Below the pieces are notes generated by a model, which saw only the letters and a program-made list of their open reading frames with translations, was not told where the DNA came from and ran no database searches. Of a stretch of 17,901 nt of DNA, positions 7,033 through 13,105 are shown one piece after another. Position numbers and translations under genes: made by a program. Numbering within the stretch: position 1 is the first letter of the stretch; each line of letters opens with the position of its first letter. Source of the stretch: Methylophilaceae bacterium (lineage in GTDB: Bacteria > Pseudomonadota > Gammaproteobacteria > Burkholderiales > Methylophilaceae); assembly GCA_017880825.1 (NCBI GenBank), contig JADGRN010000008.1, positions 1 through 17,901 on the forward strand. The letters are read 5' to 3'.

Positions 7033-7356
7033 ATGACTTACGTTGTGACTGAAAGTTGTATCAAATGTAAATATACCGACTGCGTAGATGTATGCCCGGT
7101 AGATTGCTTCGTGGAAGGCCCCAACTTCCTCGCCATCAACCCGGACGAATGCATTGACTGCACGCTGTGCGTCGCAGAGTGCCCGGTAGAAGCCATTTTC
7201 GCCGAGGATGATGTACCTGCCGACCAGCAGGAATACATCGAACTGAATGCACGCCTATCCGCCCTGTGGCCAACGATCACTTCCAGGAAAGACGCGCTGC
7301 CGGATGCCGATCAATACAGCAAGGTAAAGGACAAGCGTAAGTTGCTGATTGAATAA
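7033..7356 (+). CDS. fdxA: 7Fe ferredoxin, FdxA type ([3Fe-4S][4Fe-4S])
   Basis: Small cytoplasmic electron carrier, 107 residues, typical FdxA length. Seen: start [20 protein letters not shown] and a cysteine pattern that matches Azotobacter ferredoxin I: Cys9, Cys17 and Cys50 for the [3Fe-4S] cluster, Cys21, Cys40, Cys43 and Cys46 for the [4Fe-4S] cluster, with Cys12 and Cys25 as the extra cysteines of the family. A strong GAGGAG ribosome binding site lies at 7021-7026. It follows cysN by 50 bp and ends at a strong terminator, so it may be the last gene of the cys operon; donating electrons to CysI is an inference. FdxA is also common outside cys loci. Confidence 0.95.
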
Positions 7357-7377: not shown

Positions 7378-7407
7378 AAAAACGCCAGCTAGATGCTGGC
7401 GTTTTTT
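7378..7407 (+). terminator. Rho-independent terminator after fdxA
   Basis: A perfect 9-bp G+C-rich stem AACGCCAGC / GCTGGCGTT (7381-7389 with 7395-7403) with a 5-base loop, flanked by A's on the left and a T-tract on the right, begins 21 bp after the fdxA stop. The A and T flanks mean it could also stop transcription coming leftward out of the cassette array. Confidence 0.92.
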
Positions 7408-7499: not shown

Positions 7500-7568
7500 T
7501 CTTAACGTTTGACATGAGCGGCAGGCACCAACTTGCCGGTGGCTGTCCGCTCAATGGAAGAGTTAGAG
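7500..7568 (-). repeat. attC site A (end of the PAP2-hydrolase cassette)
   Basis: 69 bp. Core end TCTTAAC (7500-7506) and far end GTTAGAG (7562-7568), each one mismatch from consensus; the hydrolase stop codon lies inside the far end. Inner stem: TGAGCGG/CCGCTCA (7515-7521 with 7547-7553), CAG/CTG and CACC/GGTG, loop 7530-7537, with a single unpaired T at 7546, like the extrahelical bases that set strand choice in attC sites. Confidence 0.8.
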
Positions 7569-8261
7569 AGCATTTTCAACCTCGCGCACGAAGGCGGCAA
7601 CAATTCGAGCCGCCTCAGAGGGCACGGCCTGTAGAAGGAAATGCGGAGCTTCCAGTTGCACCACCTCCGCACGTGGGCAGAGTTGCGATACAAGCTTTGA
7701 AGCGGTTTGAGGGACCAAACGGTCTTGTGAAGCGCGCAAGTACAAAACCGGAACATTAACTTCTGCGAGTTTGGCCGATACGTCCACGGAGAGCACCCCC
7801 TGTAGCCTGGCGCGAAGGGCGGACGGAGAAACCCGAGCGAGAGCTTGCGTCAGGGCCGTGCGCAAGGCGACAGTGGATGAGCGGCCAAGCAAAAGGTAAA
7901 TCAGAAAGTGCACTGGCGCGAAGGCGACGGGCAGCACGCCAACGAAGGGCTTGAGAACGGAGAAGACCGGCCGAGGATTGCGGACAAAAGTGCAACACAG
8001 CACCAAGCCCTTGAGCTGAGGGGAGCAAGAAGCGGCGAGCGAGACTGCAATGGGACCGGAGAAGGACTCGCCAAGAATGACAAAGGGGCCTTCTGATGGG
8101 AGCGCGCTGCGGGCAATAGATTCAAGCTCCGGGTAGCCCAGCGGCTCAGTGGTGGGGTAACTCACCACTTTCACGTTGAACTCGGACCCCAGAGCAGCAA
8201 CAAAAGCCTCAAACAAGGTTCCCGTGCCGTCCATGCCAGGTAGTAGGACCAGTGTGACCAT
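7563..8261 (-). CDS. Alpha/beta hydrolase (cassette gene)
   Basis: Alpha/beta-hydrolase fold protein, substrate unknown, 232 residues from the ATG at 8261; a longer frame reaches a TTG at 8339 but would overlap the preceding PAP2 gene, while the ATG has AGAGGG just upstream (short spacing). Seen: oxyanion-hole region LLPGMDGTGTLF (6-17), nucleophile elbow GESFSG with Ser66, acid Asp180 in RASQDRLVP, and base His207 in EAPHFLLQ, so the Ser-Asp-His triad is complete. A hydrophobic patch at 108-126 might form a lid or membrane contact. It lies 52 bp after the PAP2 stop with no attC between, so both share one cassette. Confidence 0.85.
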   Translation of the reverse strand: MVTLVLLPGMDGTGTLFEAFVAALGSEFNVKVVSYPTTEPLGYPELESIARSALPSEGPFVILGESFSGPIAVSLAASCSPQLKGLVLCCTFVRNPRPVFSVLKPFVGVLPVAFAPVHFLIYLLLGRSSTVALRTALTQALARVSPSALRARLQGVLSVDVSAKLAEVNVPVLYLRASQDRLVPQTASKLVSQLCPRAEVVQLEAPHFLLQAVPSEAARIVAAFVREVENAL

Positions 8262-8313
8262 TACCCTCTGATGTCCAAGCTCAGCCGCTGATGATGTCGA
8301 CGGGATGGCATCG

Positions 8314-9036
8314 TCAGGCCTGACGTAACTCAAGCGCAACGCTTATCGCCAGAGGCAGAAATGCGCCGATGCACGCAGCGACCAATACGTCAGTCGGCCA
8401 GTGCACACCAAGCACCAGACGCGAAATGGCGACAAGAGCTATCCATAAGATCGCTATCGACAGCGCGAGCTTGCCCGTCGCTGGCCTGATTCGGCTCACG
8501 CAAAGAGCGGCGGCGATAGCGAATGTCGCGACGACCAGAGTATGCCCGCTGGGAAAGCTGGAACCCCAATACCACTCTGTGCCCCACAGCGCCGGCCGAG
8601 TTCGGCCGACCACCGTTTTGACAAAGTAAATCATAATCGCACCGCTGATCACCGAAGCTGCGACAAGTAGAGCCTCGAAGCGGTGTCTTGCGTACAGAAG
8701 TGCGATGGTCGCCACGGCCGCGAGCGGAAACAGAACCATTGGTGACCCTGTAAACGTGACTACTTCGAAGAATCCGGTTAGCGTGCTCGGAACGTGACTA
8801 TGGATGAAAAGCAAGATGGCCCTATCGATCGGACCTGATTCTCCGCCGAGCACATCTTCGCTCACTTTAACTGCGGATACCACGAGGACGAGCACCAATA
8901 AAGTGGTCAAACGGCGTTTCTCCAGCGGTTTGGACCATGCAGGTTGCTTGCGGCGCACGTATGCACCAAGGACGAAATAAATACAGACGACGATGAGCGC
9001 CAGCTTCGCGGTGTCTTCGATCAGCTCGAAGATCAC
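8314..9036 (-). CDS. PAP2-family membrane phosphatase (cassette gene)
   Basis: Integral membrane lipid-phosphate phosphatase of the PAP2 superfamily, 240 residues with about six hydrophobic segments. Seen: the three catalytic motifs KTVVGRTRP (Lys140-x6-Arg147-Pro148), PSGH (162-165) and SRLVLGVHWPTD (Ser205-Arg206, His212, Asp216), with the active site facing the periplasm in known members. Likely substrates are undecaprenyl pyrophosphate, phosphatidate or phosphatidylglycerol phosphate; the sequence does not decide. It starts with GTG at 9036 with GGAG three bases upstream; no longer start is available in frame. It is the first gene of the largest cassette, about 125 bp from the cassette junction, leaving room for its own promoter. 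Confidence 0.92.
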   Translation of the reverse strand: MIFELIEDTAKLALIVVCIYFVLGAYVRRKQPAWSKPLEKRRLTTLLVLVLVVSAVKVSEDVLGGESGPIDRAILLFIHSHVPSTLTGFFEVVTFTGSPMVLFPLAAVATIALLYARHRFEALLVAASVISGAIMIYFVKTVVGRTRPALWGTEWYWGSSFPSGHTLVVATFAIAAALCVSRIRPATGKLALSIAILWIALVAISRLVLGVHWPTDVLVAACIGAFLPLAISVALELRQA

Positions 9037-9160
9037 ACGCGCTCCGACTGGCGCCTGCCAAATGAAGCCGTGAGTAAGGAGACTGAAAGACCAAACCTCC
9101 GGGCAACTCGCGACTGCTGGTGACTCATAAGCTTCCGTTCCTCAGGGTAGTCAGGGAAAC

Positions 9161-9241
9161 GCCTAACGTTCGCTATAATCGGCGCATTTGTGGTAACTGG
9201 AGGGAGCGTCAAATGCGTTCGTGTTCATGGCGTTGTTAGCG
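9161..9241 (-). repeat. attC site B (end of the DUF302 cassette)
   Basis: 81 bp, the longest of the set. Perfect core GCCTAAC (9161-9167); far end GTTAGCG (9235-9241) is weaker, 9 bp from the DUF302 stop. Inner stem CGCATTTG/CAAATGCG is a perfect 8-bp pair (9183-9190 with 9210-9217) around a 19-base terminal loop. Confidence 0.75.
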
Positions 9242-9249
9242 GCGAGTAT

Positions 9250-9633
9250 TCATTTCGCCTCGTCAACCATCTGAATGGTCTTTTCCTCAACCTCTTTGGC
9301 AACTTGAACTAACGCTGCATCCTGGGATAGCGCCGAAAGCATTTGCACTGGCTTAATAAGGCCAATCTTCGTTTTGCCTTTCTCGGTAAACACCGAGATA
9401 CGGCAGGGCAACGCCATGTTTAGGCGCATATCGGCGGACAAAACTTTCGCCGCCTGTCCCGGATTGCACACCTCGAAAACCTTGCACTCCTCATCAAAGG
9501 CAATGCCTTTACTGCGCAGTGTGGCCCCCAAGTCGTGAATATGCAGCACGCCGAAGCCATGACGTTTAACTGCAGAGTCAAGGTCTGTTGACGCTTGGTT
9601 GAATGATTTGCTTGTTTCAACTATGTAATACAT
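9250..9633 (-). CDS. DUF302 domain protein (cassette gene)
   Basis: A 127-residue protein of the DUF302 family, function unknown; the domain fills the chain. Seen: FGVLHIHDLGATLRSKGI (27-44), CKVFEVCNPGQAAKVL (50-65), MALPCRISVF (73-82) and TKIGLIKP (88-95), with three cysteines (50, 56, 77) and no signal peptide or membrane helix. The ATG at 9633 is preceded by an excellent GAGGTGA ribosome binding site. It sits alone between attC sites C and B, a textbook single-gene cassette, 27 bp from its junction. Confidence 0.9.
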   Translation of the reverse strand: MYYIVETSKSFNQASTDLDSAVKRHGFGVLHIHDLGATLRSKGIAFDEECKVFEVCNPGQAAKVLSADMRLNMALPCRISVFTEKGKTKIGLIKPVQMLSALSQDAALVQVAKEVEEKTIQMVDEAK

Positions 9634-9660
9634 GAAATCACCTCGATCTTTGTGGTTGAC

Positions 9661-9722
9661 ACCTAACGTTTAAAATAAACAGCCCGCACCTTTTTCGGGC
9701 GGACTTGATTGATTTGTTATAC
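9661..9722 (-). repeat. attC site C (end of the DUF2784-DgkA cassette)
   Basis: 62 bp. Perfect core ACCTAAC (9661-9667) and far end GTTATAC (9716-9722, one mismatch), 18 bp from the dgkA stop. Inner stem AGCCCG/CGGGC plus flanking pairs around a T-rich loop (9687-9695). Confidence 0.75.
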
Positions 9723-9740
9723 CCAGCATTAAGCATAATT

Positions 9741-10100
9741 TCATGTATAGGGTAGAAAAATAATGAGCCCGATAATTACTGCTCCCAGAGCACTTATCAG
9801 CACTGCACCAGCAGATATATCTTTCGCCTTTTTTACTAAGGGGTGAAATTCTGGATTTGTTACATCACATAAATATTCAAAAGCGGTATTTAATGTCTCT
9901 GCTACCCATACAGATATAATCGTTAATGTAATGATTGCCCAATGCGTCGCAGTAATTTCATAATAGAAGCCGGCCAGTATGACAACTGCTATTGCTAGAA
10001 GATGGATCCATGCGTTGTGTTGCGTTTTGAACATTAGCAACAAACCTTCCAGCGCATACCTGATGCTTCGTAATCTACCTGTCAATGTGAATTTATTCAT
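9741..10100 (-). CDS. dgkA: DgkA-family diacylglycerol/undecaprenol kinase (cassette gene)
   Basis: Small inner-membrane lipid kinase, 119 residues, the normal size. Seen: amphipathic N-terminus, three hydrophobic helices (about 31-50, 54-72 and 95-116) and the family signature ETLNTAFEYLCD with Glu68, Asn71, Glu75 and Asp79, matching the catalytic Glu69, Asn72 and Glu76 of E. coli DgkA, followed by KKAKDISAGAVL. It phosphorylates diacylglycerol or undecaprenol; members of this family differ in preference and the substrate here is open. Its ATG overlaps the DUF2784 stop by 4 bp (ATGA), so the two are translated together. The gene is visibly richer in A+T than the host genes on either side, as expected of acquired cassettes. 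Confidence 0.92.
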   Translation of the reverse strand: MNKFTLTGRLRSIRYALEGLLLMFKTQHNAWIHLLAIAVVILAGFYYEITATHWAIITLTIISVWVAETLNTAFEYLCDVTNPEFHPLVKKAKDISAGAVLISALGAVIIGLIIFLPYT

Positions 10101-10471
10101 TTTGATCGGGAAATCCTTAGCCTATAAAGAAGCCATCCATATATTGCAACGTTGATGAGTACTACAAAGCCCGCCAATTCAAATTGTATGCTTCTTGTGA
10201 GTCCAGCAGGATAGATGATGGGCAGAAGATAATGTTCAATGAAGCTGTCCGAGTAGCCCGCATCACCGGCCGCACGACGAAGGCTGGCTTCCAGTGTGGT
10301 AAGTGGGCACACCCCTCCGGTCAATTCGATGAAGACTCCCCAGCAGGCGACCGGTATGTGGCCCAGCGCAACCCAGGCAGAGCGAGACACAATAAGGCCA
10401 CCGAAAATGACGAATCCGATAAACAGGAGATGGAGAACGAGAACGGAGTCTGCCAGGAGTCGATAGGTCAT
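10097..10471 (-). CDS. DUF2784 domain membrane protein (cassette gene)
   Basis: A 124-residue membrane protein of the DUF2784 family, function unknown. Seen: ADSVLVLHLLFIGFVIFGGL (7-26) as first helix, a second hydrophobic stretch around 33-50 with HIPVACWGVFIELTGGVCPLT, the family-typical GYSDSFIEHYLLPIIYPAGLTR (72-93), and a last helix at about 98-116 ending in a basic tail. Start at ATG 10471 has no clear ribosome binding site. It is coupled to dgkA by an ATGA overlap, making a two-gene cassette whose 5' junction is the reduced attC at 10500-10520. Confidence 0.87.
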   Translation of the reverse strand: MTYRLLADSVLVLHLLFIGFVIFGGLIVSRSAWVALGHIPVACWGVFIELTGGVCPLTTLEASLRRAAGDAGYSDSFIEHYLLPIIYPAGLTRSIQFELAGFVVLINVAIYGWLLYRLRISRSK

Positions 10472-10499
10472 CAGGATTTGGAAAAGTGTTTGGTATACC

Positions 10500-10520
10500 G
10501 TTTAACGTTTGAGTTATGCC
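10500..10520 (-). repeat. attC site D, reduced to both end boxes without the stem
   Basis: Perfect core GTTTAAC (10500-10506) with the usual AACGTTTGA continuation, but the opposite end box GTTATGC (10513-10519) follows at once and the methyltransferase stop codon starts at 10521. The central arm seen in the other sites is missing, so this looks like an internal deletion of an attC; it probably cannot fold for recombination. Confidence 0.55.
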
Positions 10521-10994
10521 TCACAGCCACCGGCGAACTCTTGATATGTAGGCGGAGTAGCCAGTGCCGAACATGGCTGAAAGCACTCTTTCCTCGGGTG
10601 CGATTTGGAACCGGTTTATGTAGAGCACAAAAGCCAACGATCCAAGCAACGCCCAAGCAGAAGACAGGAATACCGCCCATGCGACGAGAACGAAGAGAAG
10701 ACCTACGTACATGGGATTTCGAGTAACTCGGTAGATACCTGAGCAAACTAACGAAGACGTCGTTTCCGGCTTCATTGGGTTGACAGTCGTTCTCGCGCGT
10801 CGAAACGAGATGACACCTGCGAGGCTGAAGCCACCACCAGCCAGAGCGATTGCTAGCGCCGCGGCTACACGAATGAACATGGGCGCTTCAAGCAACGGGG
10901 CAACCAAAGAGATTCCCCACATGGCGCCTGCGATCAGCACCGCAACCGCTGGCGGTGGGATCTTGAGTTCAAGTGCTTGCATGCGGATGATCAT
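10521..10994 (-). CDS. Isoprenylcysteine carboxyl methyltransferase family protein (cassette gene)
   Basis: Integral membrane protein of the ICMT/PEMT-like methyltransferase group, 157 residues. Seen: four to five hydrophobic segments, the SAM-binding region GIYRVTRNPMYVG (86-98), EERVL (134-138) and the usual C-terminal SAYISRVRRWL. Bacterial members methylate small or lipid-like substrates, mostly unidentified; no prenylated protein partner is implied. The frame begins at ATG 10994, four bases after the cassette core GTTATGC, without a visible ribosome binding site; the in-frame ATG at 10982 is an alternative. It ends directly at the reduced attC, so it may now be locked to the next cassette. 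Confidence 0.86.
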   Translation of the reverse strand: MIIRMQALELKIPPPAVAVLIAGAMWGISLVAPLLEAPMFIRVAAALAIALAGGGFSLAGVISFRRARTTVNPMKPETTSSLVCSGIYRVTRNPMYVGLLFVLVAWAVFLSSAWALLGSLAFVLYINRFQIAPEERVLSAMFGTGYSAYISRVRRWL

Positions 10995-10997
10995 GAG

Positions 10998-11060
10998 GCA
11001 TAACGTAAAAGTAAAGGGCTGCGCGCTTTTGCACAGTCCCGCTTGACTGCCGGGTTAGCC
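10998..11060 (-). repeat. attC site E (end of the broken unknown-gene cassette)
   Basis: 63 bp. Core GCATAAC (10998-11004) and far end GTTAGCC (11054-11060), each one mismatch from consensus; the stop codon of the preceding gene lies in the far end. Inner stem GGG-CTG-C-GC / GC-A-CAG-T-CCC around 11016-11040 with an unpaired T at 11037, in the same relative place as in sites A and F. Confidence 0.72.
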
Positions 11061-11462
11061 CTTTGATTTCTGTGTGGCATAGGTGGCTAGGAACTCTTCA
11101 AGAATGAGGTTGAGGTGATTGAAACATGCAGGGAGTTCCTCCCAGCTTGTCTCAGGATATTTTTCGTCCGTTCGGCCAATTAAGAAGTGAACCGTTCGTT
11201 CTTCTTCACTCCCGACCGAGTGTACGGCGTCAAAGAACTGGTGTTCGGAAAAATGGACATAGCCAGAGGTAAAGTCGTAGACATTTCGGACCCAGGGAAA
11301 CCGCTCAGTAAGGCGATCAACCAAATATCTATCTGTCAGAGGTTTGCCGTTAGTGCATTTGAACTTGTTTAAAAGCTTGACCCCAATAACCTCCTTGGCC
11401 ACTTGTTCAGGATCGTGAACGTATTGGTAGGCACATAGCCTAGAGATTGTATCTAGCTGCAT
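11055..11462 (-). CDS. Second fragment of the split unknown cassette gene
   Basis: 135 residues from ATG 11462, the longer of the two pieces. Seen: MQLDTISRLCAYQYV at the start, then DRYLVDRLTERFPWVRNVY and TSGYVHFSEHQFF (about 65-77), an acidic middle and a helical C-terminus ending in Lys-rich TQKSKG. There is no ribosome binding site before the ATG and it overlaps the upstream fragment by 10 bp, so it is more likely the 3' part of one gene than an independent one. Re-initiation after the upstream stop is possible. Function unknown. Confidence 0.55.
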   Translation of the reverse strand: MQLDTISRLCAYQYVHDPEQVAKEVIGVKLLNKFKCTNGKPLTDRYLVDRLTERFPWVRNVYDFTSGYVHFSEHQFFDAVHSVGSEEERTVHFLIGRTDEKYPETSWEELPACFNHLNLILEEFLATYATQKSKG

Positions 11463-11671
11463 CCGCAGAACTGCGCGACACAGACGATGTTTCGCGCCTC
11501 GATGAGAACAAGGAGGCCACTCGCAAGGCTGAGAGTTCTCTTGATTGCGCCAATGACGATGAAATCCAGCACATACAAAGGGGCACCCGCTTCACCGAGC
11601 ACAGCTATGGCCTTGCGGGGAAGGATGTCTATGGACGACGAGAGAGTTTCGATTTCAGCAGCAAGTGCCAT
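11055..11671 (-). pseudogene. Cassette gene of unknown function, split by a frameshift
   Basis: Two frames lie in one cassette with no attC between them. The first (11671 to 11453, 72 residues, starts MALAAEIETLSSS) runs into a stop in another frame, and the second continues to 11055. Reading the second frame back past its ATG gives AVLRMQLDTISRL, a natural continuation of the first frame's LLVLIEARNIVC; one lost base near 11470-11476 would join them into a protein of about 205 residues. Seen: no membrane segment of full length, no motif of known function. The rejoined protein resembles uncharacterised cassette-type proteins I have seen, with ALYVLDF-like and SGYVHFSE-like stretches; this is memory, not a search. 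A sequencing error is also possible. Confidence 0.6.
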
Positions 11672-11680
11672 GGCGTGAAG

Positions 11681-11737
11681 AGCTAACGTGTAGCTAAGCG
11701 GTGCGCGAAACGCATCCGCTTGAGCGCTTTGTTGGCG
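11681..11737 (-). repeat. attC site F (end of the cytochrome b cassette)
   Basis: 57 bp. Core AGCTAAC (11681-11687, one mismatch); far end GTTGGCG (11731-11737), with a perfect GTTGAGC also present at 11741-11747. Very regular inner stem AAGCGG/CCGCTT (11696-11701 with 11716-11721) and TGCG/CGCA (11702-11705 with 11711-11714), loop 11706-11710, and one unpaired T at 11715. Confidence 0.76.
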
Positions 11738-11756
11738 CTCGTTGAGCCGTGAGATC

Positions 11757-12500
11757 TCAGTTCCGGGTGCTGCGCTCTTCATCCACGGGACGCCCACTGA
11801 TGATCTTTCGTCCCGTGAACATTGCGGAAATGATGCTGCCACCTTCCCTCAACTCCGTGATGATTACCGACGCCACGTGCAGTACCACGACCACAACCAG
11901 CACATAAAAGCCGTATAGATGGACCATTGCAAAGGGTTTTCGGAAAGCGCGCATGCTTTCATAGGCCGCCGCGTCATACATCTCGGGCGCATAGGGCCTT
12001 AGCGAACCAGGAGCAACATCAGGCGCCGCCACCCACTGCGCGATCCAATGCCCGAGCGGTGGATAGAACAGGTCAGTACCCGCCAGTAGCAGGCCGGTGA
12101 TCGCCAGAATCGTGATGAGGAGAAACAACACGGCTATCCCCAGCCGTCCCGCTGGGTTGTGGCCCATGTATTGTTCGGGATGGCCGGCGATGAAGGCCGC
12201 GACATAGCTGCGTAGCGCCTGAAAGTATCCCCTGCCCCCGGGAAGGATCGAACGCCACTTGGCATAACGGTTGCCAAAGAAAGCCCATACGATACGCCAG
12301 AGCAGGTTCAGCACGAAGACGTAGCCGATCCATACGTGGATCGTTTTAAGGGTCAATTTACCTGCGGTGGGCACCTCGAGCGCGCCGGTATTGAGAATCA
12401 GAAATCCCACAACCGCCAAGGCGATGACACAGAGCGCATTGATCCAATGAAACCAGCGGGTACTCGCATCCCACACAGCATAAGTTTTCAGCTCAGGCAT
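11757..12500 (-). CDS. Cytochrome b561/Ni-Fe hydrogenase cytochrome b-like protein (cassette gene)
   Basis: Inner-membrane di-heme b-type cytochrome, 247 residues from ATG 12500 (MPELKTYAVWD); the frame stays open upstream to 12590, but that part is not family-like. Seen: four membrane helices with the expected heme-ligand histidines His18 (RWFHWINA), His55 (KTIHVWIGY), and His194 and His208 in the last helix, plus a long periplasmic or cytoplasmic loop between about 141 and 187. Such proteins pass electrons between the quinone pool and a soluble or membrane partner; no partner gene is present, and a c-type cytochrome elsewhere would be expected. It is the first cassette from the right, with about 120 bp between junction and start codon. 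Confidence 0.88.
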   Translation of the reverse strand: MPELKTYAVWDASTRWFHWINALCVIALAVVGFLILNTGALEVPTAGKLTLKTIHVWIGYVFVLNLLWRIVWAFFGNRYAKWRSILPGGRGYFQALRSYVAAFIAGHPEQYMGHNPAGRLGIAVLFLLITILAITGLLLAGTDLFYPPLGHWIAQWVAAPDVAPGSLRPYAPEMYDAAAYESMRAFRKPFAMVHLYGFYVLVVVVVLHVASVIITELREGGSIISAMFTGRKIISGRPVDEERSTRN

Positions 12501-12543
12501 ACAGGTTTTCCATTTTTTCCCCAGAGATTCATGTGGCAAGCTC

Positions 12544-12569
12544 GCGAAGATACAACCTGCTGTCTTCGC
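12544..12569 (-). other. Hairpin in the leader of the cytochrome b cassette
   Basis: A perfect 7-bp dyad GCGAAGA/TCTTCGC with a 12-base loop lies in the noncoding leader between the cassette junction and the cytochrome b start codon. It has no T-tract. It could influence the leader RNA or mark a regulator site; no role is shown. Confidence 0.35.
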
Positions 12570-12619
12570 AGATGAGTGTTTGATTTGCAATCGTTATCTT
12601 ATTGCGCATCTTGTGCTAC

Positions 12620-12666
12620 GCCCAACGTTTGAAATAACCGGCTGGCGCGGCTTTATCGCGCCTAAC
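12620..12666 (-). repeat. Array-proximal half attC with two core sites (site G)
   Basis: Perfect core GCCCAAC (12620-12626) with the usual AACGTTTGAAATAACCGG arm, then a hairpin GGCGCG/CGCGCC (12644-12649 with 12657-12662), but instead of the opposite arm a second perfect core GCCTAAC (12660-12666) in the same orientation. Sequence beyond 12666 shows no further site. It may be a truncated attC fused to an old attI or cassette junction. Confidence 0.5.
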
Positions 12667-12707
12667 ACTGAGGCTATAAATATCTTTTAAGTGATACTAG
12701 CAGAAAT

Positions 12708-12741
12708 AAAAAACAATTAACTCGTGCTTTTTTGTTTAATT
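12708..12741 (-). terminator. Weak A/T-rich terminator after the mazG operon
   Basis: On the minus strand, 11 bp after the mazG-like stop, an A/T-rich dyad (CAATTAAC 12714-12721 with GTTTAATT 12734-12741, one bulge) is followed by six T's (12713-12708). The stem is weak. It would limit read-through from the operon into the cassette array. Confidence 0.45.
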
Positions 12742-12751
12742 ATCTCCCTAA

Positions 12752-13105
12752 TTATTCGTAGGCAGTATATTTTGCGTTGCTGCCGCGTACTTTTTCCACC
12801 GGATATTTCTTGGCGTTGAGGTCAATCTTGGCGTTGGTCGCCGCGATTAAATCCACGCCAGTCACCTCGGCGATGCGCAGCAAATAGACAAAGGTATCGG
12901 CCAGCTCATGGCTCACCTGCTCGCGCTTTTCGGCGCTGAGCTGGTAGCTCTGTTCTATGGTGTTCCACTGAAAATGTTCCACCAGTTCGGCCGCCTCGAC
13001 GATCATCGCCATGGCCAGATTTTTCGGCGAATGGAACTGCTCCCAGTCGCGCTCCTGCACAAAAGTATTGATGCGTGTTCTCAGGTCATCCAAGGAATCA
13101 CTCAT
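12752..13105 (-). CDS. MazG-like nucleotide pyrophosphohydrolase
   Basis: House-cleaning enzyme that hydrolyses nucleoside triphosphates to monophosphates and pyrophosphate, cytoplasmic, 117 residues from ATG 13105, which has AAGGAGA about 9 bases upstream; a longer frame reaching 13177 overlaps rlmL and is not family-like. Seen: all-alpha single MazG domain with the metal-binding pattern Glu37-x2-Glu40 (EAAELVEHFQW) and Glu67-x2-Asp70 (ELADTFVYLLRIAE), and KIDLNAKKYP near 93-102. It is closer to the short RS21-C6/dCTP pyrophosphatase-like group than to full two-domain MazG. Its start overlaps the rlmL stop by 8 bp, so it is the last gene of that operon. Confidence 0.9.
   Translation of the reverse strand: MSDSLDDLRTRINTFVQERDWEQFHSPKNLAMAMIVEAAELVEHFQWNTIEQSYQLSAEKREQVSHELADTFVYLLRIAEVTGVDLIAATNAKIDLNAKKYPVEKVRGSNAKYTAYE

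Follow-up and report, generated by a model that had tools for sequence, protein, structure and literature searches.

A cluster of attC sites lacking an integrase, with readable decay, between fdxA and mazG in a Methylophilaceae genome

The DNA analysed here, referred to as the window, is a stretch of 17,901 nucleotides that forms an entire contig (C135) of a Methylophilaceae metagenome-assembled genome (MAG) of 1.45 Mb, 199 contigs and 75.76% completeness. Between an fdxA-type ferredoxin gene and a mazG-like gene, at 7500-12626, it carries six minus-strand gene cassette units. From the 5′ end these encode a cytochrome b561, a protein of about 205 amino acids, a PEMT/ICMT-type methyltransferase, a DUF2784 protein with a DgkA-type kinase, a DUF302 protein, and a PAP2 phosphatase with a hydrolase (Table 1). 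An earlier note on this DNA had described six units that each end in an attC-like site. The six units are there, and covariance model R2, described below, recovers five of the sites, the sixth (10500-10519) being stemless. The array is a genuine cluster of attC sites lacking an integrase (CALIN), ordinary in kind, whose decay can be read from its sequence.

Table 1 Features of the cassette region and its flanks, by position in the window.
Feature	Position	Strand	Remarks
fdxA-type ferredoxin gene	7033-7356	+	Pfam Fer4 and DUF3470; 3′ end of cys operon; left chromosomal flank
Terminator-like hairpin	7378-7406	both	Minus strand: 12-pair stem and T tail, strongest in region; plus strand: 5-pair match
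attC H	7500-7569	-	3′ end of array; R2 34.3 bits, E 1.4e-7
Alpha/beta hydrolase gene	7563-8258	-	Pfam Hydrolase_4, Abhydrolase_1
Possible decayed attC between PAP2 and hydrolase genes	8263-8319	-	Boxes GCCTGAC and ATCAGAG, chosen by eye
PAP2-family phosphatase gene	8314-9036	-	Pfam PAP2 1.7e-20
attC F	9161-9243	-	R2 20.1 bits, E 0.0012; weakest of five
DUF302 gene	9250-9633	-	Pfam DUF302 8.9e-17
attC E	9661-9722	-	R2 34.0 bits, E 1.7e-7
Diacylglycerol kinase (DgkA-type) gene	9741-10100	-	Pfam DAGK_prokar 1.3e-34; 4-base overlap with preceding gene
DUF2784 gene	10097-10471	-	Pfam DUF2784 5.2e-36
Stem-deleted attC remnant D	10500-10519	-	R'' GCATAAC, TCAAAC, R' GTTAAAC; both end boxes, stem gone
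PEMT/ICMT-type methyltransferase gene	10521-10994	-	Pfam PEMT 4e-12
attC C	10998-11060	-	R2 48.5 bits, E 1.6e-11
Frameshifted gene	11055-11671	-	About 205-amino-acid family of unassigned function; break near 11480
attC B	11681-11737	-	R2 38.6 bits, E 8.7e-9
Cytochrome b561-type gene	11757-12500	-	First of array; Pfam Ni_hydr_CYTB 1.3e-28
5′ edge A, right half of attC	12620-12674	-	GTTAGGC 12660-12666, GTTGGGC 12620-12626
MazG-like gene	12752-13105	-	Pfam MazG-like; 3′ end of rnr operon; right chromosomal flank

The covariance models for attC sites were built here, in place of IntegronFinder's own model. A pattern search found 14 candidate sites in arrays beside the intI genes of relatives, and 11 of them were aligned to give model R1. 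R1 returned 106 matches at E ≤ 1 in 17 intI-linked loci, the 94 at E ≤ 0.005 serving for model R2; neither model contains any sequence of the window. The attC covariance search suggested in the earlier note was carried out with these models: R2, run over the window with filters off, gave five minus-strand sites with E values of 0.0012 or better, and the next matches had E values of 1.5 or worse. Successive sites lie 0.4–1.6 kb apart in one orientation, with open reading frames (ORFs) between them. As a control, R2 produced no match at E ≤ 1 in 118,958 bases from eight relatives' loci around mazG or fdxA, and a single match at E ≤ 0.1 in 397,793 bases from 23 relatives' loci around mazG (locus L093 is common to both sets). 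Strict regular expressions for the R'' and R' boxes found no paired site in the window, where Rfam gave no match either. A looser fold-based scanner returned many false sites and was dropped in favour of the covariance models.

The sites differ from one another. The AACGT that had been noted earlier at the core junction is present at four of six sites, B having CACGT and C having TACGT. Site C is closest to the family's own attC class (68–73% identical to five family sites). Pairwise, the five attCs of the window are 51–65% alike with a mean of 56%, and none of ten intI-linked family loci with at least four sites has a mean as low (67–83%), a contrast that is partly built in, since the intI-linked sites were gathered with a model whose training sites resembled them. 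This ten-locus count replaces an earlier contrast with five best-match family sites (93–98% alike).

Comparison with other genomes identifies the PEMT unit as a mobile cassette, since it is found elsewhere with its boundaries at the R boxes; this holds for one unit. Its DNA is 94% identical to a locus in genome G082 and 91% identical to one in G250 (loci L232 and L233), genomes of two other families in which the protein shares 92% and 89% amino acid identity. The alignments span 10513/10514 to 11005/10999, the R'' box of site D bounding them on one side and the R' box of site C on the other. Both loci have an attC-like stem 3′ of the PEMT gene, which R2 matches in L233 (E 5.3e-5) and which was seen by eye, with no R2 match, in L232. 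Three cargo searches fetched 25 loci (our own excluded), and R2, applied to 18 of these, gave three matches at E ≤ 1.

Circular cassettes require complementarity between the boxes at their start and end. In the array, 22 of the 28 positions compared are complementary between cassette-start R' and cassette-end R'', where permutation gives 14 on average (P = 6e-4 over seven units, P = 0.017 over the first five, which include site D). These P values are optimistic, the seven-unit value above all, because the expected sequence was known when the boxes were chosen at site D and at the decayed site. Over 64 bases, site H shares 89% identity with an attC in locus L244; its identity to the segment that separates dfrB from aac(6') in an annotated class 1 integron (NZ_CP043574.1) is 81%. 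Matches occur in five plasmid records and extend over at most 9% of the array in each.

The array is set in family chromosome. Both flanks match Methylophilaceae (Methylophilales LSUCC0135, Methylovorus, Methylobacillus, Methylotenera and others), and they consist of operons that, from Pfam domains, we take to be cys...fdxA and rnr-spe-rlm-mazG. fdxA has matches at E ≤ 0.001 in 137 of 149 other family genomes (three weak, the strong ones 76–87% identical) and adjoins cysN in relatives. MazG identity in relatives is 85% at most, and the order rnr-spe-rlm-mazG is kept wherever the compared locus extends far enough. Where relatives have mazG and fdxA on one contig, the closest pair by eye among those listed is 15.7 kb apart (G032). 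We compared the junction with 66 other relatives' loci around mazG or fdxA, some of which overlap and most of which reach 1.5 kb either side, and the cargo proteins had no tblastn match in them at E ≤ 1e-8. Thus, the stretch is not ordinary conserved chromosome, a reading that we rejected on the control scans and these cargo-free loci. The earlier view of a chromosomal CALIN beside the cys (sulfur assimilation) operon is supported.

Decay is visible at several points. We read site D as an attC that has lost its stem, because the cassette homology ends at 10513/10514, where L232 and L233 have an attC-like stem. The frameshifted gene is aligned by its homologue P0002 in two frames, 11656-11480 and 11480-11058. 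In its family, 35 of 43 proteins (the window's own 135-amino-acid ORF among the 43) are 196–224 amino acids long, and the search with the protein found only relatives of 32–40% identity. The candidate at 8263-8319 fits the circular-cassette rule, has no covariance-model match, and may be a seventh, decayed site.

At its mazG side the array ends in half a site. The right half at edge A scores 22 against the family attCs (background mean 10, maximum 17 in 1000 draws); edge A passes this half-site test, which is not sharp, the right halves of five true sites scoring 16–21. A whole attC at this position was rejected (6.4 bits and E 5.1 with R1; 8.5 bits and E 2 with R2 over 12620-12839). The edge here is half an attC. 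An attI was also rejected. Model R3, made from 13 family attI sites beside intI, yields nothing in the window up to E 10, though the same search finds a site on contig C182 of the same genome at E 9.3e-7. Since the edge is derived from attC and not attI, the array is not headed by attI and looks detached.

No homology to tyrosine recombinases or IntI was found in the window, in which both chromosomal flanks are present, and the earlier statement that it holds no integrase stands. Across the MAG, PF00589 has two matches, XerC, which is over the NCBIfam cut-off, and XerD, which is cut by a contig end and reaches 313.8 bits against a cut-off of 329.6. TIGR02249 has four matches in the MAG, none over its cut-off, which 42 of 100 sampled genomes pass.

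We propose that the window probably holds a detached, partly decayed CALIN in a Methylophilaceae chromosome, a reading drawn from a 5′ edge that is the right half of an attC and not the family's attI. Observed are attCs in one direction, one unit with mobile-cassette boundaries, no adjacent integrase, no attI head, a stemless attC and a frameshifted gene. Unlike the array at 7500-12626, contigs C182 and C158 of the same genome retain attI-like sites. The cassettes would have been captured singly in circular form, through the action of an integron integrase on the bottom strands of attCs, and the block would have reached its present place, away from any attI, by off-site insertion or rearrangement at an attC. 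Without an integrase in cis, the block would now be losing sites and genes, and IntI supplied in trans is predicted to be still able to excise units between intact attCs. There would be no integron promoter, and transcription, if any, would come from rnr-spe-rlm-mazG read-through or from the cassettes' own promoters, running up to the terminator at 7378-7406.

Several points weigh against this proposal. An IntI may lie somewhere in the missing quarter of the genome. The genome-wide search that had been suggested for intI and attC did yield an attC array, on C182, and XerC and XerD as the only tyrosine recombinases, but absence is not provable at this completeness and with C182 ending inside its array. 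Support for site F is weak (E 0.058 in the R1 search and 0.0012 in that with R2). The folding z-scores of the bottom strands are -4.35 for H, -2.62 for B, -1.61 for E, -0.40 for F and +0.76 for C, so that by folding energy alone H and B are supported, E is marginal, and C and F do not surpass shuffled sequences. Of the conserved boxes and foldable stems described in the earlier note, site D keeps both end boxes but has no stem. The attC case rests on the covariance model and homology, plain folding energy being weak evidence. As to read-through, the interval that separates the edge from the first gene has a weak terminator-like match (12573-12555) and, immediately ahead of that gene, a promoter-like one (9/12) at 12539-12512. 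Finally, no same-genus genome is among the sampled family genomes, so the empty site is not readable.

Alternatively, a sedentary chromosomal integron may have degraded in situ, intI and attI between mazG and the first cassette being deleted and the array left in place. Family arrays that are headed by attI and have no IntI nearby offer a precedent, and the truncation of edge A makes a deletion there plausible. We nevertheless consider this possibility unlikely: the edge is attC-like and not attI-like, the window has no IntI homology, the attCs are more heterogeneous than those of the family's intI-linked arrays, and by eye none of the relatives' intI genes listed shares a contig with mazG or fdxA at a distance of 30 kb or less, which points to no platform here in relatives. 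It is highly improbable that the contig is an artefact joining unrelated metagenome pieces at attC repeats; the MAG does have 199 contigs, of which others (C182, C121 and C46) end at or near cassette-type sites, but the five attCs are too dissimilar to act as assembly repeats and both flanks carry Methylophilaceae genes in family order. A further reading, ordinary chromosome in which inverted repeats arose by chance, could draw on the two stems that fold no better than shuffles, but it has a negligible claim in view of the covariance scores, the control scans and cassette-exact homology across families, and for the PEMT unit it is already refuted.

We also examined other arrays in the same genome and family. 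A second array, on C182 (4471-5489; loci L205 and L122), consists of an attI-like edge with no intI, a cold-shock-type cassette, an attC (24.6 bits, E 0.0055) and the start of another ORF up to the contig end. The cassette protein, presumably cold-shock/DUF1294-like, matched only a cold-shock model in PADLOC. The gene upstream of this array (218 amino acids) had no match in 59 other family genomes, and integrase deletion there is neither shown nor excluded. An attI-like half-site of 24.5 bits lies near a contig end at C158:105-156, 3′ of a peptidylprolyl isomerase gene, and another of 15.5 bits (E 0.027) lies after gyrB at C121:7277-7308, also near a contig end and followed by a small ORF. Contig C46 begins (1-66; L124) with a degenerate attC right half (18.6 bits, E 0.26) that precedes a 6-phosphogluconate dehydrogenase gene.

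Across the family, attC matches at E ≤ 0.001 occur in 41 of 60 genomes, and 13 of the 60, our own included, have at least two attC matches but no IntI over the cut-off (a hand count, genome-wide and irrespective of clustering). The attI-like sites at E ≤ 0.01 number 62, and 41 of them lie more than 2 kb from any of the IntI matches listed. Sixteen of these 41 orphan sites, in loci of relatives, were fetched for inspection. An attC follows on the same strand 0.27–0.70 kb downstream in 12, IntI homology is absent from 12 within loci of 4.0–9.5 kb, and 11 have the attC and lack IntI homology (L213-L219, L221, L224, L229 and L230). By eye, several keep the intergenic region that adjoins attI. In L222 and L226 the attI-like sites adjoin short N-terminal fragments that resemble IntI (67% over 55 amino acids and 63% over 70 amino acids) and are possible cases of integrase loss in place; the IntI-like matches of L220 and L225 are weaker or more distant. 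Genome G047, a single contig, has one IntI over the cut-off and four attI-like sites, with three attI-headed arrays that lack IntI, the IntI lying elsewhere. Such attI-headed arrays without intI in several relatives are more unusual than a CALIN, and we do not claim them as unreported. In a Methylophilaceae MAG, a strong attC match of 55.4 bits (L140:2560-2618) lies about 7.4 kb from mazG.

A broader and decidedly speculative possibility, which we think improbable, is that Methylophilaceae hold several arrays per genome, some headed by attI and lacking IntI and others headless, that one integrase serves or served in trans and whose transcription upstream housekeeping operons supply. These arrays would be satellites and not dead relics. 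If so, counts of integron size and activity would change, as arrays at a distance from intI would have to be included in one functioning system with it.

In kind there is little new here. CALINs are common in the literature (PMC9024848, PMC12444791, PMC12901181, PMC11089894) and in Methylophilaceae; the RefSeq figures in PMC9024848 make them about as frequent as complete integrons (2961 versus 2760). Like CALINs in general, the array has at least two attCs with cassette genes between them and no nearby integrase, with no categorical difference. What it contributes is a clearly bounded CALIN from a methylotroph family; in it, compared with CALINs in general, decay is legible site by site, in a stem-deleted attC (via copies in two other families), a frameshift and a half-site edge. 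In contrast to a complete integron, it has no intI gene and no attI at its head. In Xanthomonas, cassette clusters away from the canonical integron occur in about 50% of genomes (PMC12444791); they are alike as off-locus clusters, whereas family, loci and cargo differ. Integrases can also place cassettes into chromosomal attG sites, which are neither attI nor attC (Loot et al. 2024, as cited in PMC12444791 and PMC12901181). By analogy, attG insertion is a possible route for the array at 7500-12626, although its 5′ edge is itself attC-like and the empty target was not found in the sampled genomes. Chromosomal integrons with intI in the same family (L098-L114) have an attC class that site C and the 5′ edge resemble; unlike them, the array has no intI, no attI, and more heterogeneous attCs.

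The cassettes are co-directional with the mazG operon, and no minus-strand terminator-like site was found between mazG and the edge at 12620. From the sequence, read-through transcription from the rnr-mazG operon into the cassettes is possible, and the fdxA and cassette transcripts may both end at the hairpin at 7378-7406. Further weak terminator-like matches lie inside the array. The 12-pair stem excepted, region totals are near chance (12 terminators where 7.8 would be expected, and 2 promoters where 4.5 would be).

A check for defence cargo with PADLOC gave no match for the eight cassette proteins of the window, the frameshifted one being represented by P0002. Several cargo domain names point to lipids or membranes, whether by selection or by chance. 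Homologues of the hydrolase were found at E ≤ 1e-20 in 12 of the 368 further genomes compared, with a best identity of about 41–42%; R2, run on 4 of their 11 loci, gave no match and thus no cassette context.

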